DNA from: Pseudomonadota bacterium
Lineage (GTDB): Bacteria > Vulcanimicrobiota > Vulcanimicrobiia > Eremiobacterales > Eremiobacteraceae
Direction of reading: 5' to 3'
Length of the DNA stretch: 44,650 nt
NCBI GenBank assembly: GCA_021325335.1
Contig: JAJPHJ010000109.1
Location: forward strand, 1-44,650
Shown here: positions 3,970-36,020 of the stretch, piece by piece
How the letters are laid out: the number at the start of each line of letters is the position of its first letter
How positions within the stretch are numbered: the stretch's first letter is position 1
Position numbers and translations under genes: made by a program
The notes under the pieces: generated by a model
Seen by the model: only the letters and a program-made list of their open reading frames with translations
Database searches by the model: none
Told to the model about the DNA's origin: nothing

Positions 3970-5346
3970 TCAAAGGAGAGATCGCAACCGCGTCGCGCGG
4001 TAAGCAAAGAGACGCTCCAGATTTCGGCGCACGGTTGGAAGCGCCACATCGCTGAGCGGCGCAAGGCCGAGCGAGTATTCCACCGCATCGCTGACTTCCA
4101 CCGAAGCATCCTCCCTGGTCTCAAAGCGATGCTCGTGCCGCCACAGCTGGTACGGCCCGCGCAGGGCGATGTCTTCGAAGCCCAGCGGCGGATCCCAGCG
4201 CGTGACGAGCGTCTTCCAACGCAACGGGATGGAGCCGACTCGTAAGCGGTAGTCGATCGTGGCTCCGCGCCTCATCTCGACGGGGAGTGGGGTCTGTATC
4301 TCCAGACGCAAACTTCCTGGCGTCAACGCTTCAAGGTTGCCGGGGTCGGAGAAGAATGCGAACACTTTGGACAAAGGGGTGTGGACGAGTTCCGCGGCCG
4401 CAAATCTCTGCGTCCGCGGCGACCTGCGCCCCGACCGGTCGAGCAGGTCGATCAGCGCCGATTCGAGATGCGGGTGCTTCCAGACAAAGCCTTTGTCTTG
4501 CGCGACTGCCGGCAGAAGTAGCTGGCTCGCCAAGAGCGACTCGGCGAACTCACCCAAGACGACCCTGAGTGCGACGCCAGGAGCCGGGGTGAGTGCCGGC
4601 CTGCCGAGGGCGTGACCCAGCGCCTGCGCAAAACGAGCGCTCGTGGCCGGGTCGGGAGCCGCCGCGTTGAACGCGCCGCTGACGTCCTCGCGGTCGACCA
4701 CGAAGATCCATGCCGCGACCGCATCTTCCAGATGGATCCACGGCCACCATTGACGTCCCGAGCCCATCGGGCCGCCCAGGCACGCGCGAAACGGCGGCAA
4801 CATCGCAGCGAGCGCACCACCATCTCGTCCGAGCACGAGCCCCTGGCGCAAGCGCACGACCCGCGTGCCGAACTCTTCGGCTACTTGAGCCTCGCGCTCC
4901 CAATCGATGCAGACGTGCGCAAGAAAATCACCCCCGGGCCGCGAGGATTCGTCCAGCGGCTCGTCACCACGCGAGCCGTAGTACCCTGAGGCGGACGCAC
5001 ACGCGAGCACGGGTGGCCGGACCGGGCATTCCCACATCGCGGTGACGAGGTTGCGCGTGGTGAGCTCGCGCGAATCATGGATCTTGCGCTTCTTCTCTTC
5101 CGTCCAGCGGCCGGATACGCTCTCGCCCGCAAGATGACAGACGGCGTCCAAACCGACAAGTTCTGCCGCGATGTCTGCGATGTTCGCGCTCATGAGATCG
5201 AGCCGGCGCACCTCGACTCGGGCAGGAAACGCGACTTCGGAGGGATCCCGCACGAATGCACGGACGCGATCGCCGCGCGATGCGAGGGCATTCACGAGCG
5301 CGGCTCCGATGAATCCCGAAGCCCCGGTCACACCGATCGTCTTCAT
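3970..5346 (-). CDS. TIGR01777-family NAD(P)-dependent epimerase fused to an SRPBCC domain
   Basis: 458 residues. The N-terminal 290 form an atypical short-chain dehydrogenase: GVTGASGFIGAALVNALASRG (nucleotide-binding Gly motif), CHLAGESVSGRWTEEKK, CASASGYYGSRGDEPL and a C-terminal DUF1731-like part (GRPALTPAPGVALRVVLGE, ending QDKGFVWKHP). This is the YfcH/SDR39U1 pattern. From about residue 310 an SRPBCC (START-like) ligand-binding domain follows (AAELVHTPLSKVFAFFSDP, ALTPGSL, WRHEHRF). The family's substrate is not established, and the fused hydrophobic-pocket domain suggests a lipophilic ligand. It starts two bases from the divergent PEBP frame and ends at the bidirectional terminator. 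Confidence 0.88.
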   Translation of the reverse strand: MKTIGVTGASGFIGAALVNALASRGDRVRAFVRDPSEVAFPARVEVRRLDLMSANIADIAAELVGLDAVCHLAGESVSGRWTEEKKRKIHDSRELTTRNLVTAMWECPVRPPVLACASASGYYGSRGDEPLDESSRPGGDFLAHVCIDWEREAQVAEEFGTRVVRLRQGLVLGRDGGALAAMLPPFRACLGGPMGSGRQWWPWIHLEDAVAAWIFVVDREDVSGAFNAAAPDPATSARFAQALGHALGRPALTPAPGVALRVVLGEFAESLLASQLLLPAVAQDKGFVWKHPHLESALIDLLDRSGRRSPRTQRFAAAELVHTPLSKVFAFFSDPGNLEALTPGSLRLEIQTPLPVEMRRGATIDYRLRVGSIPLRWKTLVTRWDPPLGFEDIALRGPYQLWRHEHRFETREDASVEVSDAVEYSLGLAPLSDVALPTVRRNLERLFAYRATRLRSLL

Positions 5347-5389: not shown

Positions 5390-5947
5390 GTGCGCGTTCA
5401 AGACTTGGCGGGCGTTGTCTTTGCGGCCATCACCACGCTATCGCAGGTCACGATGGTTTCGTTCCAGCTCACGAGCCCGGCGTTTCAGAGCCAGGGCATG
5501 TTGTTAGCGCGCTACTCCTATTCGGGGTATGGGTGCACGGGCCAGAACATCTCGCCACCGCTTGCGTGGACGGCGGGCCCCGCGAACACGAGAAGCTATG
5601 CGCTGACCGTCTTCGATCCGGATGCGCGCAACGGCGTGGGATGGTGGCACTGGGTCGTTTTCGACATAGCGCCCAATGTCACGAAACTGCCGGAACACGC
5701 GGGCAGCGGGAGCGGCTCGTTCCTTCCCCAAGGCGCGGTGCAAGGCAGAAATGATTTCCAGAACGTGGGCTGGAGCGGGCCCTGCCCGCCACCCGGACCC
5801 GCGCACCACTACGTCTTTACCGTCTACGCCCTCGACCTGGCTTCGGTGCCCGCCACGAGCGAACTGACGTCGGGGCCGGCGCTGCTTCAAGCGATGCGAG
5901 GTCACGTGCTCGCGAAAGCCAGTCTGGTCGGCCGGTTCAGCCGCTAA
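5390..5947 (+). CDS. YbhB/YbcL-family (PEBP-like) protein, probably secreted
   Basis: The conserved part begins at the ATG at 5453 and has all the marks of the bacterial phosphatidylethanolamine-binding/Raf-kinase-inhibitor-like family: GQNISPPLAW, YALTVFDPDARNGVGWWHWV, the Gly/Pro loop GWSGPCPPPGPAHHYVFTVYAL, and LAKASLVGRFSR at the end. Its length from 5453 (164 residues) matches E. coli YbhB. Upstream, from GTG 5390, a hydrophobic stretch (LAGVVFAAITTLSQVTM) could be a signal peptide, and a GGTGGGG ribosome-like site precedes it. An ATG at 5345 is also in frame. The bacterial family's ligand is unknown. It overlaps the end of the convergent PqqD-like gene by four bases. Confidence 0.82.
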   Translation: MRVQDLAGVVFAAITTLSQVTMVSFQLTSPAFQSQGMLLARYSYSGYGCTGQNISPPLAWTAGPANTRSYALTVFDPDARNGVGWWHWVVFDIAPNVTKLPEHAGSGSGSFLPQGAVQGRNDFQNVGWSGPCPPPGPAHHYVFTVYALDLASVPATSELTSGPALLQAMRGHVLAKASLVGRFSR

Positions 5948-6216
5948 CCGACCTGCGAGACCAACCCGAGCTTTTCGAACTCCTCAAGCAAAGTGTCGAC
6001 GTCGCCCGTCACCGTCGCGCGGTCCGCGCTCGTCGCGCCGCAGATAGCCTCGACGATATCCGTCTTGTTGCGTTGGCCGTCGCACAGCGCCAAGATGTCG
6101 CCCGCCGTCTTATTGAGGATGTGGACCTTTTGCGCGGAGAGATGGTGCACGAGCACCTCATCACCGACCGTTCGGATCTCGAGATCGTCCGCTTTGCGAG
6201 GGTTCACGTCAGTCAT
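5944..6216 (-). CDS. PqqD-family peptide chaperone / RiPP recognition element protein
   Basis: 90 residues with the PqqD layout: an N-terminal beta-wing (LEIRTVGDEVLVHHLSAQKV) followed by VHILNKTAGDILALCDGQR and helices ending GLVSQV. The HILN.TAG.IL.L.DG block is the family hallmark. PqqD-like domains bind the leader of a precursor peptide and present it to modifying enzymes; in lasso-peptide clusters the homologue (B1) recognises a Y..P motif. A strong AAGGAG site lies in the five-base gap after the permease gene. It is the last gene of the minus-strand operon headed by HprK-like 1, which makes it the natural partner of the MY..P peptides at 11.8-12.4 kb. The partner assignment is inference. 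Confidence 0.88.
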   Translation of the reverse strand: MTDVNPRKADDLEIRTVGDEVLVHHLSAQKVHILNKTAGDILALCDGQRNKTDIVEAICGATSADRATVTGDVDTLLEEFEKLGLVSQVG

Positions 6217-6221
6217 GCTCC

Positions 6222-7064
6222 TTAATAATGTCCTAGCGTGCCGTCAAGCTTGGCGCGGCGGACCGCCGTCGCGAAAGCGACAAGCGAGATCGGCATGAGC
6301 AGGATCGTGCAGACGATCATCCAGATGGCGTCCGGCATGAGCGCTGCGACGCTTGCACCGCCCACCGCGCCGCGGATGCCGTTGAGCGCGTGAGTGATCG
6401 GCAGCATCCACGAGACGGCTTGCAGGTACACCGGCAGCTTGCTCACCGGGAAGAGCACACCTCCTAAGAGCATAGCCAGGCCGCTAGCGACCCAGTTCGT
6501 GGGTCCGAGCTGCTTGAACGTCATGATGCTTGCCGCGCTCAGCACGCCGACGGGCGACATGCAGGCGACCGTCAGCAGCAAGAAGGTCAACGCCGTGACG
6601 AGATTGGTGCGCGTGAGATCCAGACCGAGGAGGGCGCCGACCGCCAAGTACACCGCGACCTCGAGCGCGGTCAAGGTAAAAGCCCAAAGGCCCGACGAGA
6701 GGACGATGAGGGGAAGGCTCGTCGGCGTGGCGAGCACCGCTTCTAGCGTCCCAAGCATTTGATCGCTGCGGATAGCGCGTTGGAAGCTCTGGATGGCCAC
6801 GCTTTGAAACTCGACGAAGGCCAAATTCACGATCACGTAGTCGAAATAGCTCGTCGCATGGCCGCCGAAGCCGAAGCTCTTCGACGGACCGATGAGTTTG
6901 CTCACAAAGTAGAAAGCGAGGACTTGGCCCGCGATGCTCACCCATCCCAGCCAGAACGACATGGGATAGGAGATCGCAAGCCGAGCGTCGCGGAGGAAGA
7001 TGGCGCCCGCCTTGCGCGCGTTCTCGAGCGGCCTCGGAGCCAGGGTGACGACGGCGCTACTCAT
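6222..7064 (-). CDS. ABC-2 type transporter permease
   Basis: 280 residues with about six membrane helices (for example FWLGWVSIAGQVLAFYFV, WAFTLTALEVAVYLAVGALLGL, LVTALTFLLLTVACMSPVGV, MIVCTILLMPISLVAFATAV). The mid-protein region QSVAIQSFQRAIRSDQMLGTLEAVLATPTSLPLIVLS is the usual ABC-2 coupling region (G.LE.....P....). The start overlaps the ATPase gene by eight bases, and the pair forms one exporter. With a PqqD carrier, kinases and small peptide genes in the same operon, export of the peptide product (or of an envelope molecule made by the operon) is the likely role. Confidence 0.88.
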   Translation of the reverse strand: MSSAVVTLAPRPLENARKAGAIFLRDARLAISYPMSFWLGWVSIAGQVLAFYFVSKLIGPSKSFGFGGHATSYFDYVIVNLAFVEFQSVAIQSFQRAIRSDQMLGTLEAVLATPTSLPLIVLSSGLWAFTLTALEVAVYLAVGALLGLDLTRTNLVTALTFLLLTVACMSPVGVLSAASIMTFKQLGPTNWVASGLAMLLGGVLFPVSKLPVYLQAVSWMLPITHALNGIRGAVGGASVAALMPDAIWMIVCTILLMPISLVAFATAVRRAKLDGTLGHY

Positions 7065-8064
7065 GCGACGGCTCTTGCGTGGTCAGTCGGAAAAGCTCGA
7101 GCAGCCCGTCGTCGAGCGGTCGCAGGCCCCGGATCGTGGTGCCGTTCGAGCTTAGGGCGTGCAACAGATTCGTCAGCGCGCGGCCGCCCGCGACCAGTTC
7201 GATGGTGAGCGTTTGCTCGCGGCTCGGTGCGGCATGGACGTGCAAGACGCCTTCGATGCCGCGAAGCCGCGCGAGCAGGCCGTCGTCGACGCGGTCCAAC
7301 GAGATCGCGTAGCGCATGCGGCCGCCGATGGTCGCGTTGAGCTCGGCCGGCGAACCTTGCGCCACGATCGCCCCCGCGTTCAGGATTGCGACGGTGTCGC
7401 AAACCGACCATGCCTCTTCCAGGATGTTCGTGGTGAGGATGACCGTCTTGCCGCGCCGTCCGACGAGCTCCTCGCGGAGCAAACGCCGCATGGCATCGGC
7501 GTGGATGGGATCCACCCCGCGAGTGGGCTCGTCGAGAAGCAGAATCTCGGGATCGGCGATGAGCGCCCGGGCCAAAGCCAGGCGCTGGCGCATGCCCGAG
7601 GAGTACGCATCAAACCGCTTATTCAAAGAAGAGCCCAGATCGACGACCTCGACGACCTCTTGGATACGCCGTTCGAGCACGCGGCCGCCAAGGCCGGCGA
7701 GCGTGCCGAAGAACTGAAGATTCTCCTGTGCCGTGAGCCTGAAATAGAAGCTGCGGTCTTCGCTCGTGCACAGACCGATGCGACGCTTCACCGCGTCCGG
7801 CGCGCGGGCGGCGTCGATGCCGTCGACGACAATGCGGCCTGAATCGGGAAGGGAGAGCGTCGCGATGAGCTTCAAGAGCGTCGTCTTGCCGGCGCCGTTC
7901 GGTCCGAGCAGCCCGAAGAGCTGGCGCGCCGGCACGACCAAGCTGACGTCGACGAGCGCAGCGCGCCGCGGACGTCGCCCGAGCGTCCGCAGCCACGAGA
8001 CGAAATCGTAGCTCGCAGGGAAGCTCTTGGCCACATTCATGCAGGCGACGATCGGCTGGTTCAT
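7057..8064 (-). CDS. ABC transporter ATP-binding protein (exporter type)
   Basis: 335 residues from the ATG at 8064. Walker A is GPNGAGKTT (54-62), the signature is YSSGMRQRL (154-162) and Walker B is ILLLDEP (174-180); TTNILEEAWSVCD holds the switch region. In place of a usual Q-loop there is CTSEDRSFYFRLTAQENL, a variant known from ABC-2 drug and lipid exporters. A C-terminal domain of about 90 residues follows the nucleotide-binding domain. The start codon overlaps the stop of the upstream fusion gene in an ATGA, so translation is coupled. Longer frames reach 8139 but would run into the neighbour. It pairs with the permease directly downstream. Confidence 0.92.
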   Translation of the reverse strand: MNQPIVACMNVAKSFPASYDFVSWLRTLGRRPRRAALVDVSLVVPARQLFGLLGPNGAGKTTLLKLIATLSLPDSGRIVVDGIDAARAPDAVKRRIGLCTSEDRSFYFRLTAQENLQFFGTLAGLGGRVLERRIQEVVEVVDLGSSLNKRFDAYSSGMRQRLALARALIADPEILLLDEPTRGVDPIHADAMRRLLREELVGRRGKTVILTTNILEEAWSVCDTVAILNAGAIVAQGSPAELNATIGGRMRYAISLDRVDDGLLARLRGIEGVLHVHAAPSREQTLTIELVAGGRALTNLLHALSSNGTTIRGLRPLDDGLLELFRLTTQEPSHE

Positions 8065-9656
8065 GGCCGCGCCCGCATGGACCGCGCATAGCCGAGCGCG
8101 CACGCGCCCGCGAGCACCCGGCCCGAGATCCGCCACCACGAACGCGCCCGCGGCTCCTCATCCAATCCGGATCGCGGATCGAGCACTTGCCATCCAAGCC
8201 GCGTAAAGCGACGATCCGCGGCATACCACCCTTCTGCCAACTGGCTGCGCTGCGCGAAATACAAAGGCACGTCTTCGCGCCGGCCGACCCAGTCGAGGTA
8301 CCGGTCGACGGCGACGTTTGAAGGCCACGGAACGCCGGCCAACCGCGAAGCGAATGCGAATGATGCGCCGAGCCTAAGCTGGTCGATCCGCTCCTGCGCG
8401 ACAGCGGCGTGAAGTCCGGCGCGCTCTTGCGGCGTCATCACGCCGAGCAGCTGGGCGAGCAGCACGCTGTCTCGCAACCGGTGCAACCCGATCGCGTGCA
8501 CGCCGAGATGAAGCGCGGTGCCTTCGCGATCCAGACAAAGGACGGTTCCTGCGGGACCGTCCACGGGAACCATCCGGTGTCTCAAAGCCTCCCAATCGAG
8601 CGCAGTGGATAGCGTGCCAGGTCGAGCCAGCGCGGTGTGCAGTTCCACGGCGAAACCGAGTCCCGGCGGGAACAGCGGGGCGGCATGATGGTGGTGCTCG
8701 AGATACCGTTGCCGTTTGGCCGCGTACTGGCGTTCCCCATAACCTTCCTCACGCAAGGCTGCAATCGCGCCCTCGAGACGGTCGGGAGGGACAAGGACGT
8801 CGAAATCTCCGCTCGCGTGGAGCGTCGCGCCGGCCTCATTGCCGTACAGTCTCGCGGCGCCTTTGAGCAGCGCGAAGGGCACGCCGCTCTTGCCAAGCGC
8901 AGTCACGACGGCTGCGACGCTGCTCTTGGCGACGAGCGAGAGGAGCACGGCGCTCCGGCCGCCGCGCTGAAGCGACTGACGCAGGTATGCCGCCGCAAAT
9001 CCTTCGGGCTGGAACGCACGCAGAGCCTCGAGCAGCATCGCGGTGCAGCCGTGGCGGCGCGCGGTGGCCGCAAGCGCCGGCATATCCGCGCCGTCGAGCG
9101 CGACGCGAAAGGCGATCGGATCGTTGCGCACCGTGGCAGCCATGAGATCGATGAGTGCCAGATATGGACGCTTGCGGCGCCAGGGTATTGCGTTTGCAAC
9201 TCGGCGCACCTGGGCCGTCGCGCGAAACGGCAACGCTCGTAGCGCCCGCGTCCTGGCGTAGAGAGCTCCGCGCAGGTGGAAGATCCCTGTGTCGACACGG
9301 CGCGCTTCGGGGGCATCCGACGCGAGAACGGATTTTACTTTTCCGACGAACGTGGCAAACGCCGGATACTCGGGCGACCACGGTCGCGCATCGCCGCAGG
9401 TCTCGACTATGCCGTTGGCGACCTTGGTCACGCGGTGTGCCACGAGCTTGCCCTCGTCTTCGAACACGAGGATGTCGCCTCTCGCCGGCGACGCGACGAC
9501 CGGTTCGAGCTCAAGCACCATGGGCTCGCGCAACAACGGCAGCATGCTTGTGCCTTGCATGGCCAAGCGCGGCACGCTGCGCGTGCCGAGCAGCATCTTC
9601 ACCGCTGCGATCGCGGTCTGCGGATTTTCGATCGGAGGTCTTGCGGCAGCGCTCAT
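8061..9656 (-). CDS. S26 (SipW-like) peptidase-like domain fused to a nucleotidyltransferase
   Basis: 531 residues in two parts. Residues 30-115 look like a signal-peptidase S26 core: MQGTSMLP with the nucleophile-like Ser37, then GDILVFEDEGKLVAHRV, where His74 stands at the general-base position used by archaeal/ER/SipW-type enzymes. There is no membrane anchor. Residues 195-450 form a nucleotidyltransferase of the uncharacterised NTP_transf_5 type: LLKGAARLYG then SGDFDVLVP with Asp284 and Asp286 as likely metal ligands. Such NTases and S24/S26-like domains occur separately near HprK-like and PqqD-like genes; the single polypeptide suggests the two acts are coupled. Both ends overlap neighbours by ATGA. 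Substrates are unknown. A leader-cleaving role for the S26 part is inference. Confidence 0.8.
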   Translation of the reverse strand: MSAAARPPIENPQTAIAAVKMLLGTRSVPRLAMQGTSMLPLLREPMVLELEPVVASPARGDILVFEDEGKLVAHRVTKVANGIVETCGDARPWSPEYPAFATFVGKVKSVLASDAPEARRVDTGIFHLRGALYARTRALRALPFRATAQVRRVANAIPWRRKRPYLALIDLMAATVRNDPIAFRVALDGADMPALAATARRHGCTAMLLEALRAFQPEGFAAAYLRQSLQRGGRSAVLLSLVAKSSVAAVVTALGKSGVPFALLKGAARLYGNEAGATLHASGDFDVLVPPDRLEGAIAALREEGYGERQYAAKRQRYLEHHHHAAPLFPPGLGFAVELHTALARPGTLSTALDWEALRHRMVPVDGPAGTVLCLDREGTALHLGVHAIGLHRLRDSVLLAQLLGVMTPQERAGLHAAVAQERIDQLRLGASFAFASRLAGVPWPSNVAVDRYLDWVGRREDVPLYFAQRSQLAEGWYAADRRFTRLGWQVLDPRSGLDEEPRARSWWRISGRVLAGACALGYARSMRARP

Positions 9657-10606
9657 GCGGTCTCGACCGCGTAGACGGGCGTCACGCCGGCGGTGGTGGC
9701 GGCGACGAGCAATGCCGTATCATCGGGCGTCCCAAGCGTCAAGCCAAAGCAGCGTGCTTGCCGCACGAGGTGGGCGGCGGCGGCGAGCCGATCCATCCCT
9801 GGCAAGGGGCCGGCAAACGCAGCGCCGAGCAGCAACTGCAGTGCCGGCTCGAGCGAAAGAGGGTCTATCCGCGGCCGTTCGTCTCTGCCGGTGATGAAGA
9901 AAATGGTCTCGAGCTTCGCCGGTGCCGGCAACGGGCGGTCGCCGAGCACGTCGGACAGCATAGCCGCCTCCCAGTCCTGCCCTCGGCGCGCGCGCAAGAC
10001 GTCACCAATCCCACCGTCATCCGGCACGAGCTCCGATGCCAGCAATTCGATGCCCCCCGCCCGGAGATTCACGGCCCGCGGGAACGGCAGCACGCAACCG
10101 TCGCGGATGACGCAGCGCTCGTCGCTGTACAGGCCCATGCCCCGGCGGGCGCAGGCGAACGCGGTCGTCGATTTTCCCCCGGTCGAGACAGCGGAAATGG
10201 CGGCTGCGACATCGCCGATGCGCAGCGCCGCAGCGTGGAACGAGCACAGCGCCGGATGGATCGAAAAAAACGCGTGCGTGGTGACTGCGTCGGCCAAGAA
10301 TGCGACTGGCCCGGAATTGCGCAACGTCAACGGGTGCGCGAATGCGCCGCCCGGCTCGGTGAAGAATATCGGTCCTCGCTCATCGCTCGCGACTGCACAA
10401 CACACAAGATCGGGCGGGTCAGCCGTGAGAAACGCGCCGTAGCGCCGGCGCAAGGCCTCGATCTCCGCCGGCCGGTTGCAACGCACCTCGATCGTCCGTC
10501 CAAACCAATCCCAGCGCACGCTGTGGAGCGCATGCTCGAGTAATGCAGCACGCTCGCCGGCATCGAGCTCGATCTCTTCGAGCTGGTCTGCTGTGATGAC
10601 CGTCAT
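9653..10606 (-). CDS. HPr kinase-like protein 2 (degenerate P-loop)
   Basis: 317 residues with an HprK-like C-terminal fold: SFHAAALRIGDVAAAI with His124, then AVSTGGKSTTA (139-149) at the P-loop and GMGLYSDERCVI after it. Compared with the usual GxSGxGKS the second Gly is replaced by Thr, but the GKST that contacts phosphate is kept. HprK-like proteins in peptide and exopolysaccharide clusters (HprK-related A and B families) are usually found with a PqqD-like protein and a nucleotidyltransferase, exactly as here; in some lasso clusters a homologue phosphorylates the peptide's C-terminal Ser. It overlaps both neighbours by four bases. Whether it is an active kinase is open. Confidence 0.78.
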   Translation of the reverse strand: MTVITADQLEEIELDAGERAALLEHALHSVRWDWFGRTIEVRCNRPAEIEALRRRYGAFLTADPPDLVCCAVASDERGPIFFTEPGGAFAHPLTLRNSGPVAFLADAVTTHAFFSIHPALCSFHAAALRIGDVAAAISAVSTGGKSTTAFACARRGMGLYSDERCVIRDGCVLPFPRAVNLRAGGIELLASELVPDDGGIGDVLRARRGQDWEAAMLSDVLGDRPLPAPAKLETIFFITGRDERPRIDPLSLEPALQLLLGAAFAGPLPGMDRLAAAAHLVRQARCFGLTLGTPDDTALLVAATTAGVTPVYAVETA

Positions 10607-11496
10607 CCGAGCAACCGCTCGATGATGTCTGCGGCGGCCCCGGGCGTGTGCGCGACGATCCGGTAGCAGGGCACGCTCGAAAGCATCTCAGTCGTGTCGA
10701 CGAAACGCGGGAACCCTTCGGCATCCGCGTTCAATCGCTTCGTAAACTCGACCGCCGCCAGCGCCGGCGTGACGGCGTCGCTTCGGGCGGGCCCCTCAGC
10801 GCGCTCGAGCATGAATGCCGCCGCAAGCGGCGCCGGTTTTGCGAACACATCCTCGCCGAAGACGTCACCCGCATCGATGTTATCCCAGACCCGATCGCCG
10901 TGCTGCGTGCGCGGCGTCGAAGCTTCGCACGCGTCGCGCAGGCGCGTGTCGCCGAAGATCGCGATGGTGCGCTCCCGGATCATGAGCGCTCGAGGCAATC
11001 CCCACACAAACCCATCGGCGCGGCGCACGAAGGCAAATTCGTCGCTGTAGAGCCCCGCGCCGCGTCGCAAAAGCTCCAGTGCGAGCGTCGTCTTGCCGAT
11101 GCCGGATTGTGCCGAGATCAAGATCGCCCGGTCGCCCACGCGCACGGCAGCGGCATAGAGCGATCGCCACGCGGCGTTTTGGCGAAAGCTTAGCCGGATC
11201 AGCTTGCTCGCGCCGTAGAAGGCCAGCCGGAAATTCGTGGCTGGCTTCTCCTCACCGAACTCGACGGCCCGATCGTTGAAGTAGAGCCAATCGGCGCCGT
11301 TATGCGCCAAGATCAACCCGCGGTCTGTCCGTTCATCGCAGGCCGCGGGCACTGGCACGACCGCGCGTCTGTAAGCGGCGCAAAAATACTCCATGATCTC
11401 CGGAGCGTCGCTGTGAACGACGAGCGTGCGCTCGAGCGCGGCGAAGGCATGCCCGGGAGTTCGGGGTACGCGCGGCGTCGGAGCATCAGCGAGCAC
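10603..11496 (-). CDS. HPr kinase-like protein 1 (intact P-loop)
   Basis: 297 residues. The core is RSLYAAAVRVGDRAILISAQSG with SGIGKTTLA (131-139), a good HprK P-loop, then GAGLYSDEFAFVRR and a Pro/Arg-rich segment. The His that precedes the P-loop strand in HprK-like protein 2 (SFHAAAL) is Tyr here (SLYAAAV), so each protein keeps a different half of the typical motif set. GTG start at 11496 with AGAGGAA eight bases upstream. It is the first large gene after the three small peptide genes and begins a chain of genes that overlap by 4-8 bases. Phosphorylation of the peptides or of a carrier is plausible but not shown. Confidence 0.8.
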   Translation of the reverse strand: MLADAPTPRVPRTPGHAFAALERTLVVHSDAPEIMEYFCAAYRRAVVPVPAACDERTDRGLILAHNGADWLYFNDRAVEFGEEKPATNFRLAFYGASKLIRLSFRQNAAWRSLYAAAVRVGDRAILISAQSGIGKTTLALELLRRGAGLYSDEFAFVRRADGFVWGLPRALMIRERTIAIFGDTRLRDACEASTPRTQHGDRVWDNIDAGDVFGEDVFAKPAPLAAAFMLERAEGPARSDAVTPALAAVEFTKRLNADAEGFPRFVDTTEMLSSVPCYRIVAHTPGAAADIIERLLG

Positions 11497-11583
11497 AGCG
11501 TTCCTCTCATAGGAAAATCAAGCGGCGCTATGACGGCCGCCCACTCCTCGCTCTGTCGCTCGCAGGAAACGTGATAGGAATGA

Positions 11584-11601
11584 GAGCGCCTCATCGCGCT
11601 C
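11584..11601. promoter_or_regulatory. Inverted-repeat block, site 1 (upstream of HprK-like 1)
   Basis: GAGCGC-6-GCGCTC, a perfect 6-bp dyad. The same block lies 32-39 bases before two of the small peptide genes. Here it is 88 bases before the GTG of HprK-like 1, and a GAGGAG follows at the spacing expected for a peptide gene although no peptide frame is left. Confidence 0.5.
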
Positions 11602-11715
11602 GGACGTCGCAGTGCGGAAGCGGCGTCCTTCTGCACCCTATTGTGCACGTTTGACGGCCGCGCGCCTAATGGCGTTTTGTGCAAGCCATTGGTCCGAAAG
11701 GCCCCCGCCGCAAAG

Positions 11716-11745
11716 AGAGAAGCTCGGCCATGGCCGAGCTTCTCT
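11716..11745. terminator. Long perfect hairpin, possible attenuator after peptide A
   Basis: A 30-base perfect palindrome (half-site GAAGCTCGGCCA) lies 27 bases after the stop of peptide A on the minus strand and is followed there by a weak T run (CTCTTTG). It would form a very stable stem but a poor terminator tail, so partial read-through into the HprK operon is plausible. This would give much more peptide than enzyme transcript. Confidence 0.6.
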
Positions 11746-11771
11746 TATAGACCGCTGCTACCGGATGGGAT

Positions 11772-11870
11772 CTAGTCGCACCAAACCACGTTGCTGCAGT
11801 TTTGGCCGAGCACGTCGCTGAGCGCTCCGTTGATATCTACCGAAGCCACGATCTGCGGGGTCGTATACAT
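11772..11870 (-). CDS. Small peptide A, putative RiPP precursor
   Basis: 32 residues. Leader half begins MYTTPQIVASVD and ends DVLG (residue 22); tail QNCSNVVWCD carries two Cys. It shares with peptides B and C the pattern MY..P[KQ]I[VI]AS[VL]D and a Gly at residue 22, after which the sequences are unrelated, the signature of a conserved leader and a variable core. GGGAGGAA lies eight bases upstream of the ATG and a TATAAT box just before that. Y..P.[LI] is the leader motif recognised by PqqD-like (B1) proteins in lasso peptides, and a PqqD-like gene closes this operon. The lasso-type Thr before the core and an acidic ring residue at core 7-9 are not evident. A secreted signalling peptide is the alternative. 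Confidence 0.72.
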   Translation of the reverse strand: MYTTPQIVASVDINGALSDVLGQNCSNVVWCD

Positions 11871-11878
11871 GAAGTGTA

Positions 11879-11899
11879 TTCCTCCCGCAGGTCATTATA
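11879..11899 (-). promoter_or_regulatory. Promoter -10 box and ribosome site of peptide A
   Basis: On the minus strand TATAAT (11899-11894) matches the -10 consensus exactly, and GGGAGGAA (11886-11879) is a strong ribosome site eight bases before the ATG. The inferred transcript would start close to the ribosome site. The -35 region is not consensus. Confidence 0.6.
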
Positions 11900-11944
11900 G
11901 CAGCGGGGTGGGCGCGAAAGACCCCAGACAAAGGGCCCAAAAAG

Positions 11945-11979
11945 AACGAAGGACGCTGCGTCATGCCGCGTCCTTCGTT
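11945..11979 (-). terminator. Rho-independent terminator after peptide B
   Basis: A perfect 12-bp stem AACGAAGGACGC / GCGTCCTTCGTT with an 11-base loop, followed on the minus strand by CTTTTTGGG. It begins 21 bases after the stop of peptide B, so B seems to be made from its own short transcript. Confidence 0.82.
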
Positions 11980-11999
11980 TGTTCAGCGATCGATGATGT

Positions 12000-12107
12000 T
12001 TAACCGAAGTCGCACTGGCTGCCTTGGTAGTCGTGTTTGTGGCCGAGTGCAGTGGCGAGGACGATTTTCGCGTCGAGCGATGCGATGATCTTGGGTGAGC
12101 TATACAT
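12000..12107 (-). CDS. Small peptide B, putative RiPP precursor
   Basis: 35 residues. Leader half MYSSPKIIASLD and then AKIVLATALG (residues 13-22); tail HKHDYQGSQCDFG with one Cys and a His/Asp-rich start. It is closest to peptide C in the first 22 residues and unlike it afterwards. GAAGGAGA lies ten bases before the ATG, a TATTAT -10-like box 30 bases before it, and the inverted-repeat block 39 bases before. A strong terminator follows at once. It is too short for default gene callers and I found it by its match to peptide A. The cleavage point after Gly22 is inferred from where conservation stops. Confidence 0.75.
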   Translation of the reverse strand: MYSSPKIIASLDAKIVLATALGHKHDYQGSQCDFG

Positions 12108-12117
12108 GCGGATGATT

Positions 12118-12143
12118 TCTCCTTCGAGCTTCGTGAGATAATA
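12118..12143 (-). promoter_or_regulatory. -10-like box and ribosome site of peptide B
   Basis: On the minus strand TATTAT (12143-12138) and GAAGGAGA (12125-12118) precede the ATG at 12107. The inverted-repeat block at 12146-12163 touches the -10 box, the position from which a bound protein would block RNA polymerase. Confidence 0.5.
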
Positions 12144-12145
12144 GG

Positions 12146-12163
12146 GAGCGCATCATCGCGCCC
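12146..12163. promoter_or_regulatory. Inverted-repeat block, site 2 (upstream of peptide B)
   Basis: GAGCGC-6-GCGCCC, one mismatch from the perfect dyad of site 1. On the minus strand it continues as CTC....T...[TA]CTCAC, a pattern shared by all three sites over about 30 bases. Confidence 0.5.
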
Positions 12164-12255
12164 GTTGCGCATGGAGTGACCCGATGCTCCATCCGCCTTC
12201 GCTCGCCCATCGCTTTCTCCTCAAAGCATTTCGATGCGAAGCTCTGAAGCGAAAG

Positions 12256-12282
12256 ACTTACTCATATGAATGTATGAGAAGT
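12256..12282 (-). terminator. Weak hairpin at the end of peptide C
   Basis: CTCATA / TATGAG with flanking ACTT / AAGT forms a 10-bp stem with one bulge, directly at the stop codon of peptide C. The T run that follows on the minus strand is poor (TCTTTCG), so it may protect the transcript end more than terminate. Confidence 0.35.
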
Positions 12283-12386
12283 TACGGAACGCAACCATAC
12301 CCGCTGCGACCGTTGCTGCTGCCGAACGCACTCGAGAGCACCACCGCGGCGTCGAGCGATGCGACGATTTTGGGTGTGACGTACAT
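12282..12386 (-). CDS. Small peptide C, putative RiPP precursor
   Basis: 34 residues. Leader half MYVTPKIVASLD followed by AAVVLSSAFG (13-22); tail SSNGRSGYGCVP with one Cys near the end. Ten of the first twelve residues match peptide B or A, and the Gly at 22 is shared, while the tail is unique. GAGGAGAA lies seven bases upstream of the ATG, and the inverted-repeat block lies 32 bases upstream. It is the first gene of the array and faces away from the second ABC exporter, sharing its upstream region. The tail's Ser/Gly/Cys content would suit dehydration, cyclisation, phosphorylation or disulfide formation; none can be chosen from sequence. Confidence 0.75.
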   Translation of the reverse strand: MYVTPKIVASLDAAVVLSSAFGSSNGRSGYGCVP

Positions 12387-12417
12387 GAGCTTGTTCTCCT
12401 CGAGGTGATGGGATTCA

Positions 12418-12435
12418 GAGCGACTCAACGCGCTC
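12418..12435. promoter_or_regulatory. Inverted-repeat block, site 3 (upstream of peptide C)
   Basis: GAGCGA-6-GCGCTC, one mismatch from site 1. On the minus strand the block runs on as CTGAATCCCATCACC, parallel to sites 1 and 2. Confidence 0.5.
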
Positions 12436-12440
12436 ATGGC

Positions 12441-12459
12441 GCAGCGTATGGAACGCTGC
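12441..12459. promoter_or_regulatory. Second dyad in the divergent promoter region
   Basis: GCAGCGT-ATGGA-ACGCTGC, a perfect 7-bp inverted repeat with a five-base centre, lies between peptide C and the divergent ABC ATPase gene. It could be an operator for either or a hairpin in the peptide transcript. No clear -35 box accompanies it. Confidence 0.35.
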
Positions 12460-12558
12460 GGCTCTCCGGCTTCTCCACGAGGTTTTCGCGTTCTTGGCCC
12501 GCGCCGTGGTCCTTAGGCCCCGTTCTCGGGCAGCGCCCGCCGGCGGCCGATATTGTAT

Positions 12559-13275
12559 ATGATGACACCGGACGGACTAGCGGTTGCGCACCTCACGAGG
12601 CGCTTCGGCAAACTGACGGCGGTCGACGACCTTTCGTTCCGGGCGGCACGCGGCTCGATCTTGGGGCTGCTCGGGCCCAATGGCGCTGGCAAGACCACAA
12701 CGCTGTTGTGCCTCGCGGGCCTGCTTCGGCCCGACGCAGGGGTGCTCGCGCTTGACGGCCAGCCGCTCGGCGCCGATCGGGGGCGGGTCATCTCGCTCAT
12801 CCCAGAGACGCCGGAGGTCTACGGCATGCTCACCGTTTGGGAGCATCTCGTTTTTGTCGCCAAGAGCTGCAAGCTTGAGGCCGGCTGGGCTGAGCGCGGG
12901 CGCGAGCTCTTGGAGCGGTTAGACCTTTACGAGCGGCGCGACACGATCGGCGAAGCGCTCTCCAAGGGGATGCGGCAAAAAACGCTCATCGCGGCGACCG
13001 CGCTCGCGGGCGCGCCCGTGCTGCTGCTCGACGAACCGATGATCGGTCTCGATCCCAAAGGGCAGCGCGAACTGCGCGCCATCCTCAGCGACCTCCGTGA
13101 CGCCGGCTGCGCCATCATCCTTTCGACGCATCTGCTCGAGTCGGCCGAAGCGATCTGCGACCGCGTGCTCGTGCTCAACTTCGGTCACGCCGTTATCAGC
13201 GCGCCGATGGCAGAACTGCGATTCGGCGAGTTCGGCCGCAGCCTGGAAGACCTGTTTCTGGAAGCGACGCGATGA
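12559..13275 (+). CDS. ABC transporter ATP-binding protein (second exporter)
   Basis: About 238 residues, the size of a minimal nucleotide-binding domain. Walker A GPNGAGKTT, signature LSKGMRQKT, Walker B VLLLDEP then MIGLDPKGQRELR, and the His switch in STHLLESAEAICD. The N-terminus reads AVAHLTRRFGKLTAVDDLSF, typical of ABC-2 exporters. Starts at TTG 12553, ATG 12559 and ATG 12562 are possible and none has a good ribosome site; a TATTGTATAT sequence suggests a promoter very close to the start or a leaderless transcript. It is divergent from peptide C and overlaps its permease partner by four bases. The position suggests a role in peptide export or self-protection, but that is inference. Confidence 0.9.
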   Translation: MMTPDGLAVAHLTRRFGKLTAVDDLSFRAARGSILGLLGPNGAGKTTTLLCLAGLLRPDAGVLALDGQPLGADRGRVISLIPETPEVYGMLTVWEHLVFVAKSCKLEAGWAERGRELLERLDLYERRDTIGEALSKGMRQKTLIAATALAGAPVLLLDEPMIGLDPKGQRELRAILSDLRDAGCAIILSTHLLESAEAICDRVLVLNFGHAVISAPMAELRFGEFGRSLEDLFLEATR

Positions 13276-14894
13276 CCGCCGTCGCTGCCCTTGCCTATCT
13301 CGAGTGCCGCATGGCCTCGAACCGCCTGCGGTTGCTGCTCCACGAACCCGGACGCCTTGCGTTGTGGGCGCTTTTTATCGCGTGGTTGTGCCTCTTCTTC
13401 TTCACCCGGCTTTCACGGGTCTCGGGCGCGCCGCTCGGCCTGTTCCTTCCGCACGAACTCCATCTCTTCTACGCCTTCGCGCCGGCTGCGTACATCGCGC
13501 TCATCGGTCTGCAGATCCGCTCGGGCAGCCGCAGGCCGCCGGCCACCTTCGCATATCCGGCCGATGCCCGCTTTTTGTTCGGGTCGCGCCTCAGCCATAT
13601 CGTGGTCGTGTTCTGGCTGCAAGTGCGCGAAGTGGCATTCTCCGGTACGCGAGTGTTCTTGGGCCTGTTCTTCATCTCGTGGAACTTTGCCGGCAGCGCG
13701 CGCGGTCTGCTCATCGCAACCTGCGCGCTGCTGTGCGCGTACATCATCGCTTTCGGGATCCGCATGCCAGTCTTCTTGGCGCAGCGCCGTATGCCTGAGG
13801 TCCCTTTCGGCACGTTCGGCGCGGCATTGATCTGCACGGCGCTGCTCACCCTTGCGTTTCCGATCGCTTTTTCGTATGCAGCCGGATCGTTCCATTTGAG
13901 TACGGTCGCCGCGCAGACCGTGGTTTTTCCACCGGGGTCCTGGATCGTCGAAGCGCTGGCCGGCAGTCACCGCGCGCTCTTCGGGCTGATCGGGCTCGCG
14001 ACCGCGATCGTGGCATGCGGGTCCATCGCCTCGGCCGACGCCTATCCGGAGATTTGGGAGGCCTCTTCGCGTCTGTACGCCGTGCGAGCGCTTGTCGCAA
14101 GGGGTCACGGCCTTTGGAATTCTCAGGCGTTGCGGTCTCTGCGCGAGGCGCCTGGCAGCGCCCCGACGAGAACCGGCAGCATGAAATCTTCGCGCGGACA
14201 GCAGGTGCCTTCGGGCGCACGGACGCTTCTATGGAAGGATTGGATCGCTTTGCGACGCTCGCCCGGCGGATTGAGCGGCCCGCTGCTGTGGCTTGGCGGC
14301 GCCGGCGCCGCAGGCTATTTCGCGGGGCTTGCCGCGAACTCGCTCAGCGTGCTCTTGATCGCCGGCCCCCTTGTCGCGATCGCCAATATTTTCATCGTCG
14401 TCGGATCGCAAAGCTCGGTCACGCTCGGCCTTGAGCTCCGCAAACCGCTGTGGTGGCTAACACGTTCCACGTTATTCGAGCGCCTGCTGGCATGGATTGC
14501 CGGCGCGACCATTCGCGCGGGGCCACCGCTCGCTGCCGCCGCGATAGCGGCCGGCATTGCGCTGCGCTCGTGGCTCGTAGTGGCTGCCAGCGTGCCGGTC
14601 ATCTGGACGGCACTGCTCTTGGTGCAGGGCATCGGCATCGCGTCCTACGTTGTGCTTCCAGGACGCCACGAACTGCGCGGCCCGGGTTTTATGTTGCGCA
14701 TCTTCATCACCTACGCCGCGCTCCTACCGCCCACCATGGCCTGGGCGACGGCGCAAACGTTCTCGTCGAGCCCGCTGCTCGGCATCGCCGCGGGCCTAGC
14801 CGTCGCAGCCGGCGAGCTGTTGGGCTTGACCCTCTTCGCCGCGAGGCGTTTGGCACAAAATGCGATGGCGTATGCGGTCGCCGAGACGCGCTAG
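13272..14894 (+). CDS. Large integral membrane protein, putative ABC exporter permease
   Basis: 540 residues with roughly a dozen hydrophobic helices in two halves separated by a soluble linker near residues 255-315 (ending PSGARTLLWKDW). The linker sequence ARTLLWKDW..LRR is the repeat start found in two-module ABC export permeases of the 'putative ABC exporter' type: the first half begins with a similar soluble N-terminus (YLECRMASNRLRLLL). It overlaps the ATPase gene by ATGA and therefore should be its membrane partner. The substrate is unknown. The stop lies six bases before the convergent zinc-ribbon gene. Confidence 0.82.
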   Translation: MTAVAALAYLECRMASNRLRLLLHEPGRLALWALFIAWLCLFFFTRLSRVSGAPLGLFLPHELHLFYAFAPAAYIALIGLQIRSGSRRPPATFAYPADARFLFGSRLSHIVVVFWLQVREVAFSGTRVFLGLFFISWNFAGSARGLLIATCALLCAYIIAFGIRMPVFLAQRRMPEVPFGTFGAALICTALLTLAFPIAFSYAAGSFHLSTVAAQTVVFPPGSWIVEALAGSHRALFGLIGLATAIVACGSIASADAYPEIWEASSRLYAVRALVARGHGLWNSQALRSLREAPGSAPTRTGSMKSSRGQQVPSGARTLLWKDWIALRRSPGGLSGPLLWLGGAGAAGYFAGLAANSLSVLLIAGPLVAIANIFIVVGSQSSVTLGLELRKPLWWLTRSTLFERLLAWIAGATIRAGPPLAAAAIAAGIALRSWLVVAASVPVIWTALLLVQGIGIASYVVLPGRHELRGPGFMLRIFITYAALLPPTMAWATAQTFSSSPLLGIAAGLAVAAGELLGLTLFAARRLAQNAMAYAVAETR

Positions 14895-33653: not shown

Positions 33654-35561
33654 TTATCGCATGATCGCGTTGCTCAGGTCGCTGCCTGTGATATGCGTCC
33701 GTGAAAGATCGACGCTGCGCAGGTCGACGCCTGAGAAATCGCACCCGGTGAATGAGGTCCCGGTGAGTCTCGCGCCCACGAGCGTCGCGTGGTCGAGATC
33801 GACGCCGTTGAAATGCGCGCCGCTAAGATCCGCGCCGCTCAAATTGGCGCGTTCGAGGTTCGCCCCGCTGAGCGTGAGGCCGCGCAGATCTTGACCGCGA
33901 AGATCGGCGCCCTGCAGGTCGCAGCCCCGGCAGTGTTCCAGAACGGCGTGCGCTTGCGACGGCGACAGTCGAGCGACGTCGATGCGACAGCCATCCAAGT
34001 TCGCATCGCTCAGGTCCACGCCGGCGATGTTCGCGCGGCTGAGATTGGCGCCGCTGAGGTTCGCGTTGCGAAAACTGGCCGCGCTGAGGTCGGCGCCTTG
34101 AAAGTTCGCACCGCTGAGATTGGCCCCGGAGAAATCGACATGCTTGAGGTCAGCGTTTGAAAAGTTGGCCCCGGTCAGATTCGACCCATGCAGATCGCGC
34201 CCGGCCCAACGCGCGGCAGCGAAATCGCATCCCGTGCAGTTGAAACTCGTTGCGATGGTCGCGTTTGTGACTGCTGCCGGGGTGCTCGGGAGGTGCGGAA
34301 GCACGGGCGCGGTCGGCGGCGCGTGGGCGTGTTCTCTCACGGTCAAGCGGTGTTCGGAGAGGTGGGCGTGGACCGGAACTGTGCTATGAAAAGAGGGCGT
34401 GTCGGGTGCAACCGCCGGCGCGGGAACGCGCGCGGGCTTTAGCCTCAACGCGCTTGCCGACACGCGCGGGGGCGCGGGCGGCACGGGTGTGGCGATCGTC
34501 GGCAGCGTGAACGCGATCGATGGCGCGACGGTCTGCGCCACGAACAGGAGGACGAACATCGCGGCCGCGACCAGGCCGGCTGTTCCCACGGCGACGGACG
34601 TGCCGATGTTCCTTCCCGCTGCGAGCAGGCGCTCCACCCGAATCGACAGGCCCTTGCGGGTGAGGAATACGCCAGGTGCCGCAAGGGCGCGGTGCGGCCA
34701 CGCCGTCACCTCCGCCATGCGCGTCAAGCAAAGCGCGTACGGCCGTACATCGCGCGTTTGCGCGACGACCCAATCATCGCACGCGACCTCGCGTTCGATG
34801 TCGAGTTTGCGTGCCATCCACAGCATCGCCGGGTTGAAGAAAAAGAGCGCTTCGACGACGCGCTGGAAGCAATTCGTCCAGTCGTCGGCCCGGCGCAGAT
34901 GCGCGAGTTCGTGGAGCACGATCTGGTCGATCTCGCGAGGCGAGAGCGCCCCTAGAAGCCGGGACGGAAGCAAAATGAGCGAATCGAAAAGTCCCACCGC
35001 CACTGGAACTGTGATTCGATCCGAGGTGCACAGCCGCACGTCGCGATCGCCTTTGTGCGCCTGCGCCCAGGCGTCGAGCCCATCACGCAGTTCGATGGGC
35101 ACCGGCAGCGCGTCGCGCTTGAGCTTCTCCAACTGCCACAGCGCCATCGTCAGTCGGACGAGGATGGCGGCGACGACGAGGGCCCATACAAAGAATGGAA
35201 GCGTTGCGAGCGTTGCAGGCACGGCGACCCGCAGCCGCGGGGGCGGCGCCACGGAGCGGCGCGTTGCAATTTCAGTTCCGTAACGGGCGTGGCTCAAGAG
35301 CGTGGCCGGCCGGGAAGCAGGTTGGGTCTTCGCCATGCTCGTTCCGAGCGTCGGCTGTGCGGCCGGGGCGATGGTTGAGGTATGGGGCATCGTGATGGCG
35401 ACGCTGAGCAGCGCCGACGCGGCGAGCGCGAGCGTCCAGGCAGCATAGCGCGTGGTCGCGTTGCTGCGCGGAGCGAGCCAAAAGACCGTTTGAACAGCGA
35501 GCGCCACGAGCAGCGCCACCCAGAGGCTATTGAAAAGAACGGCCACGCCGAACTGGATCAT
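33654..35561 (-). CDS. BlaR1-like M56 metallopeptidase sensor with pentapeptide-repeat domain
   Basis: 635 residues from the ATG at 35561. The first 300 residues are the M56 part: membrane helices (FNSLWVALLVALAVQTVFW, FVWALVVAAILVRLTMALW) and the zinc site HELAHLRRADDW near residue 214, then REVACDDWVV. A further helix (VAVGTAGLVAAAMFVLLFVA) leads to a Pro/Ala linker and, from about residue 440, pentapeptide repeats in blocks headed by CTGCDF and CRGCDL. Classical BlaR1 has a penicillin-binding sensor at this place; here the extracellular sensor appears to be a beta-helix. On signal, the M56 domain should trigger loss of the BlaI repressor. The ATGA overlap with blaI supports that pairing. 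The ligand is unknown. Confidence 0.87.
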   Translation of the reverse strand: MIQFGVAVLFNSLWVALLVALAVQTVFWLAPRSNATTRYAAWTLALAASALLSVAITMPHTSTIAPAAQPTLGTSMAKTQPASRPATLLSHARYGTEIATRRSVAPPPRLRVAVPATLATLPFFVWALVVAAILVRLTMALWQLEKLKRDALPVPIELRDGLDAWAQAHKGDRDVRLCTSDRITVPVAVGLFDSLILLPSRLLGALSPREIDQIVLHELAHLRRADDWTNCFQRVVEALFFFNPAMLWMARKLDIEREVACDDWVVAQTRDVRPYALCLTRMAEVTAWPHRALAAPGVFLTRKGLSIRVERLLAAGRNIGTSVAVGTAGLVAAAMFVLLFVAQTVAPSIAFTLPTIATPVPPAPPRVSASALRLKPARVPAPAVAPDTPSFHSTVPVHAHLSEHRLTVREHAHAPPTAPVLPHLPSTPAAVTNATIATSFNCTGCDFAAARWAGRDLHGSNLTGANFSNADLKHVDFSGANLSGANFQGADLSAASFRNANLSGANLSRANIAGVDLSDANLDGCRIDVARLSPSQAHAVLEHCRGCDLQGADLRGQDLRGLTLSGANLERANLSGADLSGAHFNGVDLDHATLVGARLTGTSFTGCDFSGVDLRSVDLSRTHITGSDLSNAIMR

Positions 35562-35956
35562 GGCTTTTCCTCGTACTCGCGGATGAGTTGTTTGAGGCGG
35601 CGCAGCTCGTCCGACGACGGTCTGCCTTCCTCGACGAGCCTTAAGGCGAGCTCCCCCGGATTGTCGCGAAAAAAACGCTTGAGCAAATGCCCGACCGCGG
35701 ACTTCGCTGCTTGCTCGCGTTCGATCGAAGGGTGATAGACGAATGCTCGACCACGCTCTTCGTGTCCGGCATAGCCCTTCTGCTCGAGGATCCGAAGCAT
35801 CGTCAGGACGGTGCTGTAGGCGACGGGTGGGGGCGGAAGCGCTTCGACGACTTCCGCGACCGTCGCCTTTCGCTTGGCCCACAAGACTTCCATGAGCCGC
35901 AACTCGGTCTCGGTGAGGACGGGCGAACGTTTTCGCGCCAAAGTGCCACCTCGCAT
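35558..35956 (-). CDS. BlaI/MecI-family transcriptional repressor
   Basis: 132 residues. Winged helix: LTETELRLMEVLWAKRKATV, then VVEALPPPPVAYSTVLTMLR, ILEQKGYAGHEERGRAFVY and a C-terminal dimer part (KRFFRDNPGELALRLVEEG). Members bind dyads in their own promoter and are inactivated when the partner M56 protease fires. The start is ATG 35956 or a TTG at 35941, which has GAGGTGG at good spacing. Two matching 14-base sites lie upstream, between this gene and the divergent helicase. The stop overlaps the start of the BlaR1-like gene by four bases. Confidence 0.92.
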   Translation of the reverse strand: MRGGTLARKRSPVLTETELRLMEVLWAKRKATVAEVVEALPPPPVAYSTVLTMLRILEQKGYAGHEERGRAFVYHPSIEREQAAKSAVGHLLKRFFRDNPGELALRLVEEGRPSSDELRRLKQLIREYEEKP

Positions 35957-35961
35957 GGGCT

Positions 35962-36020
35962 ACTAAGAATTTAATAGCAATATACGCCAAGCCGGAGGCG
36001 CTGTCAACTAATTCTTTAAT
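35962..36020. promoter_or_regulatory. Paired operator-like sites, likely BlaI boxes
   Basis: Two 14-base sites of the form ACTAANNNTTTAAT at 35962-35975 and 36007-36020 lie in an AT-rich gap inside GC-rich DNA. Each is close to a dyad, and they are 45 bases apart start to start. One is directly upstream of blaI; the other overlaps the first codon of the helicase gene, so that gene may be regulated as well. Confidence 0.6.

Follow-up and report, generated by a model that had tools for sequence, protein, structure and literature searches.

The window analyzed here, the whole stretch of 44,650 nucleotides, contains three short minus-strand frames that begin alike and end differently, and the question that this locus raises is whether they encode precursor peptides and, if so, peptides of what class. 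The first-pass annotation had proposed a leader and core for each frame and had left the peptide class open. Sequence comparisons narrow that class to an LPP-like RiPP, based on an accompanying SEC11-type peptidase, HprK-like kinase, NTP transferase and RRE.

The precursor frames and their copies in the genome

The three frames and the inverted repeats that follow two of them are:

11772..11870, minus strand: precursor peptide w1, 32 residues, leader MYTTPQIVASVDINGALSDVLG, tail QNCSNVVWCD
12000..12107, minus strand: precursor peptide w2, 35 residues, leader MYSSPKIIASLDAKIVLATALG, tail HKHDYQGSQCDFG
12282..12386, minus strand: precursor peptide w3, 34 residues, leader MYVTPKIVASLDAAVVLSSAFG, tail SSNGRSGYGCVP
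11716..11745, minus strand: perfect 15-bp inverted repeat without spacer, after w1, terminator-like at most
11945..11979, minus strand: inverted repeat followed by T5, after w2, terminator-like

The positions and lengths of the frames were confirmed as first noted, as was their common leader, residues 1-22 with the pattern MYxxP[KQ]I[VI]AS[LV]D...G, past whose Gly22 the tails of w1, w2 and w3 are unrelated. The strong ribosome sites also stood, in the form of Shine-Dalgarno-like purine runs (GGGAGG, AGGAGA and GAGGAGA) whose ends lie 8-10 nt before the ATG. For w3 there is an alternative ATG 17 codons upstream that would give a protein of 51 residues; the ribosome site and the family alignment favour the start at 12386. 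The consensus scan found no sigma-70-type promoter and called neither of the two inverted repeats a terminator. Back to back with the precursors is a second ABC pair (window 12553-14894; an ATPase and a PF16962 "putative ABC exporter"), which is also found beside peptides in another genus (L075) and is possibly an exporter, a means of self-protection or a mere neighbour.

The description of the frames as an array of three holds in that they are adjacent here, but they are really three of seven, the other four being on other contigs. The DNA pattern for MYxxP[KQ]I[hydrophobic]A gave seven matches in the 149 contigs (2.39 Mb) of this genome, against 0 reversed, with one copy each on contigs C7, C45, C54 and C120; the C7 copy is near apparent ribosomal protein S18 and L9 genes, as read by eye. 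Among the seven peptides the mean pairwise identity was 57% over residues 1-22 and 7.5% over the tails, compared with 7.3% for shuffled tails, and 44% of the shuffles were equal to or above the observed value. The best reading of these frames is that of leader and core precursors which the PqqD-like protein would recognise.

The peptide family and the putative maturation cassette across the class

A slightly wider DNA pattern gave 11 matches in three of 117 genomes of the class, with 0 reversed. A family profile (A1) was then built from 19 peptides and searched in the same 117 genomes, where it identified 28 places in 15 genomes; 19 of these are rows of the profile itself, so that only nine are independent finds (one each in G058, G034 and G074, and two each in G092, G064 and G113). 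A weak further member in G096 came from a regional scan only (E 0.005 there), bringing the total to 29 genes in 16 genomes. A phylum-wide search of 149 genomes revealed no additional genome with precursor peptides, and no relative was confirmed by a scan of viral contigs. A relaxed regular expression gives a possible divergent precursor in G022, MRRYSKPAILVSY..., which the profile missed.

Removal of near-identical orthologues (those of G058 and G074 and two of G092) from the 29 left 25 non-redundant peptides, which were anchored on Y..P, so that the Tyr and Pro are fixed by that choice. Beyond that anchor, all 25 have Ile or Val at -16, Ser or Thr at -13, and Ala or Val at -3 (Ala in 22), and at -1 there are 20 Gly, two Ala and one each of Ser, Met and Thr, making Gly, Ala or Ser in 23/25. 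These residues at -3 and -1 follow the signal-peptidase pattern. A neighbouring pair of paralogues in G113 is identical over residues 1-22 and afterwards has 3/10 positions in common. The tails, by comparison, have no chemistry that is conserved in all 25 peptides. The first-pass annotation had given them as Cys-containing, which is true of all seven in this genome but of only 16/25 in the non-redundant family (at least two Cys in 10), and none of the 25 leaders has Cys. Ser was present at core position +3 in 11/25, compared with 4.9 expected (p 0.002 when residues are shuffled within tails, with no correction for the relatedness of the peptides). None of the window peptides has Ser at that position: w3 has Ser at +1, +2 and +6, w1 at +4 and w2 only at +8.

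Frames that are very short and intergenic could be upstream ORFs that are translated for a regulatory role, or could have arisen by chance, and the arrangement lends itself to that explanation, w3 and w2 each preceding another precursor frame and w1 preceding an operon. We consider it very improbable given the class-wide conservation of the leader, the four copies that stand alone at unrelated loci and the inverted repeats that follow w1 and w2, albeit ones that the consensus scan did not confirm as terminators. Also against it, most pairs of near-identical orthologues differ mainly at third codon positions (for G017 and G058, 7 differences at position 3, 2 at position 1 and 1 at position 2), on few sites and with one pair, a17-a92, having no such excess (2, 2 and 1).

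Downstream of the precursors, on the same strand and in this order, are six genes that we refer to as the cassette:

10603..11496, minus strand: K1, HprK-like kinase (P-loop GKT, SDE); PF07475 E 2e-6 and TIGR04352 E 2e-13, both below cut-off
9653..10606, minus strand: K2, HprK-like kinase; TIGR04352 E 2.7e-9, below cut-off, and no Pfam match at 0.001
8061..9656, minus strand: fusion of an S26 (SEC11-like) peptidase and NTP_transf_5; PF14907 E 2.7e-22, TIGR02228 weak
7057..8139, minus strand: ABC transporter ATPase; ABC_tran match
6222..7064, minus strand: ABC-2 type permease; ABC2_membrane match
5944..6216, minus strand: PqqD-like RRE, putative leader binder; PF05402 E 1.2e-11, TIGR04353 30.4 bits, below the cut-off of 35

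Judging from the sequence, the true start of the ABC ATPase is probably the ATG at 8064, giving a 4-base overlap with the stop of the NTase gene. The curated NCBI HPr-rel-A cut-offs were missed by both kinases (36.5 and 50.1 versus 200 bits) and by the PqqD-like protein (30.4 versus 35). An Epimerase/DUF1731 protein whose C-terminus weakly matches PF10604 (window 3970-5346) comes after the cassette both here and in G001 (L073). Elsewhere in the window are a protein with an M56 (BlaR1-type) peptidase domain and a long pentapeptide-repeat C-terminus (33654-36032) and a Virginiamycin-B-lyase-family protein (PF24684; 21924-22928), a family name that is not evidence of resistance. No homologues of K1, K2, the NTase, the permease or the PqqD-like protein were found near the four extra peptide copies by blastp (E<=1e-4) over 12-19 kb each, two of those contigs ending 2-3 kb from the peptide.

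The cassette gene set recurs across the class with variation in order, orientation and completeness, and similar short frames, whose absence from homologous loci had been set beforehand as the refuting outcome, were present at or near these cassettes. The S26-NTase profile matched 24/117 genomes: 14 matches span both domains, that of G001 runs into the end of its contig, in G113 the two domains match separately, and eight genomes have no fused S26 domain (G008, G015, G022, G039, G040, G091, G099 and G115). All 16 genomes with the S26-NTase gene (the 14, G001 and G113) carry the peptides, G096 weakly, and at E<=0.001 there were none in the other 101 genomes of the class (Fisher 5e-20 for the 117 genomes, or 5e-18 if G096 is taken to have no peptide). 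In G022 and G039, which have no profile peptide, separate S26 and NTase matches lie a few kb apart. The possible divergent precursor of G022, MRRYSKPAILVSYLSRDIYAAAAASFGSPGSGVTLG (L027 position 101), belongs to a third family within the class, one with separate matches for S26 and NTase. A single-motif scan of contigs, which for that reason does not prove absence elsewhere, confirmed 11 loci, eight of which encode S26-NTases of the class (five labelled Candidatus Eremiobacterota and three "bacterium"); the other three (two Elusimicrobia and one Anaerolineales) align to the S26 domain only, over 75-102 residues.

A search of 11 peptide-bearing genomes for the kinases found K2 in 10, all but G001, whose operon is broken by contig ends and where the start of K1 is visible at one of them. 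A K1-like second match lay beside K2 in 6/11, and K1 was not found in every cassette. Four peptide-less genomes gave weak matches (G008 and G040) or none (G002 and G005). These distributions bear on the possibility that the peptides are unmodified secreted signalling peptides or bacteriocins, with a leader for export only and with kinases that act on something else. Short and often Cys-bearing tails, the ABC exporter of the operon and the lack of any universally conserved tail chemistry would all suit such peptides; their co-occurrence with a kinase/NTase/RRE cassette, and with K2 in nearly every peptide-bearing genome searched, argues against it, and we regard it as unlikely.

Conserved residues of the enzymes and the proposed pathway

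In the S26 domain, Ser37, His74, Asp89 and Glu96 are invariant in 9/9 sequences, the acid of the triad being either Asp89 or Glu96, and the S26 profile aligns Ser37 and His74 with residues of SEC11A (E 2.5e-4) that we take to be the catalytic ones. In the NTase domain, D284, D286 and E338 are likewise invariant (9/9). The AF2 model of the fusion protein (pLDDT 84) had weak Foldseek matches, none at or below 0.001 (best E 0.027), and the top ones were nucleotidyltransferases (ANT(2'') and MenT1) and signal-peptidase/LexA/UmuD folds including SEC11A. K2 has invariant His124, Lys145 and Asp162 (8/8), and PEPCK was the best match for its model (pLDDT 90.9), with HprK/P lower at E 2e-4; a relation between PEPCK and HprK is known. 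By eye, K1 keeps the Lys and Asp and has Tyr in the window protein where K2 has a His ahead of its P-loop. That His is present in only 1/5 aligned K1 sequences, and K1 may thus be an accessory or altered kinase.

The PqqD-like protein has Asn35 and Asp72 invariant in 8/8 cassettes, and its best PDB matches are the lasso RREs TbiB1 and TfuB1. Compared with the LppB structure 9x8z_B, the profile gave E 0.96, and LppB was not among the matches listed for two single sequences. In LppB, Asn33 and Asp70 fix the leader Pro and Tyr, according to the passages available of the LPP report (PMC13381572). The spacing of 37 residues between Asn35 and Asp72 equals that of the LppB pair, and from this spacing, rather than an alignment, we infer that the two pairs correspond.

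The resemblance to lasso RREs, the leader motif Y..P.[IV] and the presence on contig C78 of a PF13471 protein and a second NTase could together indicate lasso precursors that are matured by a cyclase and B2 protease from another locus, such as that on C78. The earlier statement that the window has no lasso protease or cyclase was borne out: this genome has a single PF13471 match, on C78, and a single PF00733 match, a stretch of 66 residues on C138. No macrolactam synthetase (C) and B2 protease accompany a precursor, based on the PF13471 and PF00733 searches and the operon scan. PF13471 is missing from 7/11 peptide-bearing genomes (among 61 genomes searched), there was no PF00733 match on the cassette contigs of the same 11, with only G043 having a full-length one, on another contig, and C78 resembles a polysaccharide locus (two glycosyltransferases and Polysacc_synt). 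Further, an Asp or Glu at ring position 7-9 is found in only two of the seven cores of this genome (C45 and C54) when counted from residue 23, and in 3/7 (C7 added) when counted from Gly22. On balance lasso maturation seems improbable to us. In its own right, C78 (1-9028, L066), which besides these genes has PPK2 and, next to the PF13471 match, the second NTP_transf_5 gene, is a separate RiPP-or-polysaccharide locus.

The reading that we hold to be probable is that w1, w2 and w3 are precursors of an LPP-like RiPP that is matured by the adjoining cassette. The steps that we infer, namely binding, a cut site, phosphorylation, an NTase reaction and export, would be as follows. Residues 1-22 would be the leader and the 10-13 residues past Gly22 the core. 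The PqqD-like RRE (5944-6216) would hold the leader through Y..P.[IV], and the SEC11-type S26 domain (8061-9656) would cut after the [A/V]-x-G motif. K2, presumably with help from K1, would phosphorylate a core Ser, the third core residue in many relatives, and the fused nucleotidyltransferase would add a further group to the phosphate, after which the ABC-2 pair would export the product. A single cassette would serve all seven precursors in trans, including the four that are unlinked to it.

A hairpin upstream of precursors and operon

An 18-base hairpin lies before w2, w3, the C7, C45 and C120 copies and the operon that starts with K1, is weak before the C54 copy and is not found before w1. 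In the window its sites are:

12418..12435, minus strand: hairpin upstream of w3, GAGCGC-GTTGAG-TCGCTC, with its innermost pair disrupted, repeat D2
12146..12163, minus strand: hairpin upstream of w2, GGGCGC-GATGAT-GCGCTC, repeat D2, terminator-like in the consensus scan
11584..11601, minus strand: hairpin upstream of the maturation operon, GAGCGC-GATGAG-GCGCTC

With up to three mismatches the hairpin had 11 matches in the window versus 2.2 expected, and with one mismatch its core pattern had 94 matches in the genome versus 14 reversed. Thirty of the 94 were viewed, among which three (C7, C45 and the operon) form an in-register stem of six pairs and the rest at most two consecutive pairs. In G001, which is of a second genus, the identical 18 bases stand upstream of the K1 orthologue within differing flanks, and a related hairpin is upstream of one of four peptides. 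Rfam gave only sub-threshold matches at E<=5 over 11400-12700, so the hairpin matches no Rfam family there. A hairpin model (R1) was built from eight sites, whose high scores are therefore by construction, and was searched in genomes outside f2. Independent support for it comes from a single site, its top-ranked match, which lies before the K1 orthologue of G001. Among the matches listed there was none at three of the four G001 peptides, and none at the G007 peptide (best E 0.09 elsewhere), though both peptide and operon are present in G007; two further matches (G000 C116 and G001 C62) had no precursor within the 260 bases viewed, and the control genomes G002 and G005 gave E 0.2 and 0.07.

Taken by themselves, the pair counts are weak evidence: the covariation score of the hairpin was 0.274 versus 0.175 for shuffles, the observed value being reached by 38/500 of them, and a slide of +2 scored 0.238. 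Minimum free energy folds retain the hairpin in 3/6 sequences, with z-scores of -1.8 to +0.5. Pairing between each hairpin and its own start region was better than in shuffles, with 0/500 as good when summed and <0.05 singly for 3/7, and it was also better than with the start regions of other genes (3/40320 permutations as good, or 2/5040 without K1). This pairing was noticed post hoc, after the folds, and the segments were cut by hand. As a post hoc reading, the hairpin before both precursors and operon suggests co-regulation, in which the RNA would alternate between the hairpin and a fold that masks the start region. Alternatively, the hairpin could be a palindromic DNA operator, that is, a protein-binding site, or at w2 a terminator or attenuator, in line with the terminator-like listing of that site. 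If it is an RNA switch, the hairpin would be a common translational element that links RiPP precursors with their enzymes.

A broader proposal, which we put forward tentatively and think less likely to be right than wrong, is that of a dispersed RiPP regulon in which one LPP-like cassette acts in trans on a natural library of unlinked precursors whose Cys/Ser cores diversify freely, with precursors and cassette co-regulated by a small RNA switch that has a hairpin able to pair with the start region of its own gene. Within such a regulon the HprK-like enzymes may use phospho-Ser as a leaving group for the formation of Ser-Cys thioether rings.

Comparison with known systems

No description of a system of the window type was found in the literature, as covered by titles, abstract openings and some passages. 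LPPs (lpp, Paenibacillus alginolyticus) were reported in May 2026 and, in the passages available, are called restricted to Bacillota by their authors (PMC13381572). Those passages give SpI, RRE, HprK kinase and NTP transferase as the core genes, and describe LppS, which is SpI-like, as cutting with the help of LppB and LppK as placing several phosphates on core Ser3 (PMC13381572). The cassette of the window has the same core set without a macrolactam synthetase or B2: a discrete RRE (PF05402), weak as a specific relative of LppB; a SEC11/SipW-type Ser-His peptidase, here as a fused domain; an HprK-like kinase (K2, His/Lys/Asp in 8/8, PEPCK/HprK-like fold), below the NCBIfam cut-offs; and an NTP transferase (PF14907) with an ABC transporter. 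The precursors are alike in their YxxPx[V/I] leader (YxxPx[IV] in 25/25 here), their variable C-terminal part and the Ser at core +3 (11/25 here), which is the position polyphosphorylated by LppK.

The differences are that the system is here in Eremiobacterota, a phylum that is not known for natural products of this type, and there in Bacillota, that the peptidase is here fused to the NTase, that many cassettes here have a second HprK-like gene, that the distance from Tyr to cut is 21 residues here versus 16, and that the cores here have 5-19 residues, often with Cys, with several precursors unlinked to the cassette. In addition, the leader consensus YxxPxVLxHQxIxFETxxS is not followed, HQxIxFET being absent here, and the transporter is of the ABC-2 type (ABC_tran and ABC2_membrane) as opposed to the MsbA-like exporter of LPPs; because of these two points we do not claim strict LPP membership. 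We read the frames as genes for precursors of a RiPP-type system. Most likely this is a pathway to LPP-like phosphopeptides, new in its phylum and its architecture, that serves several precursors in trans.

We take PsmN to be of the PF14907 type. In the tailoring of paeninodin and pseudomycoidin (PadeK/PsmK and PsmN), as given in the passages available, PsmK phosphorylates and the presence of PsmN adds a hexose to the phosphorylated Ser (PMC9266682). The likeness is that of a precursor-Ser kinase with an annotated nucleotidyltransferase, and the difference is that the window system has no macrolactam synthetase or B2 and no conserved C-terminal core Ser. No visible effect of LppN was reported for the LPP system in the passages available (PMC13381572), so the proposed NTase step rests on PsmN. 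Single promiscuous enzymes with many diverse precursors are known from the prochlorosins, which differ in their lanthipeptide chemistry and Nif11-family leaders (PMC10783134).

A phosphorylated linear RiPP is also known in phospeptin of Ca. Eudoremicrobium malaspinii. Its source lineage presumably belongs to Eremiobacterota. Phospeptin was set aside as a model, its sole maturase having, in the passages available, a lanthipeptide-dehydratase-type domain and not HprK/S26/NTase/RRE (PMC9259500).

If the LPP-like reading is true, the logic of LPPs would extend more widely than Bacillota, to Eremiobacterota with S26 and NTase in one protein. Unlinked precursors such as these would escape mining that is confined to gene clusters. 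The 29 precursor genes in 16 genomes provide a test set, in which the fusion, the cut motif and the Ser at +3 give leverage on the unexplained NTase step.
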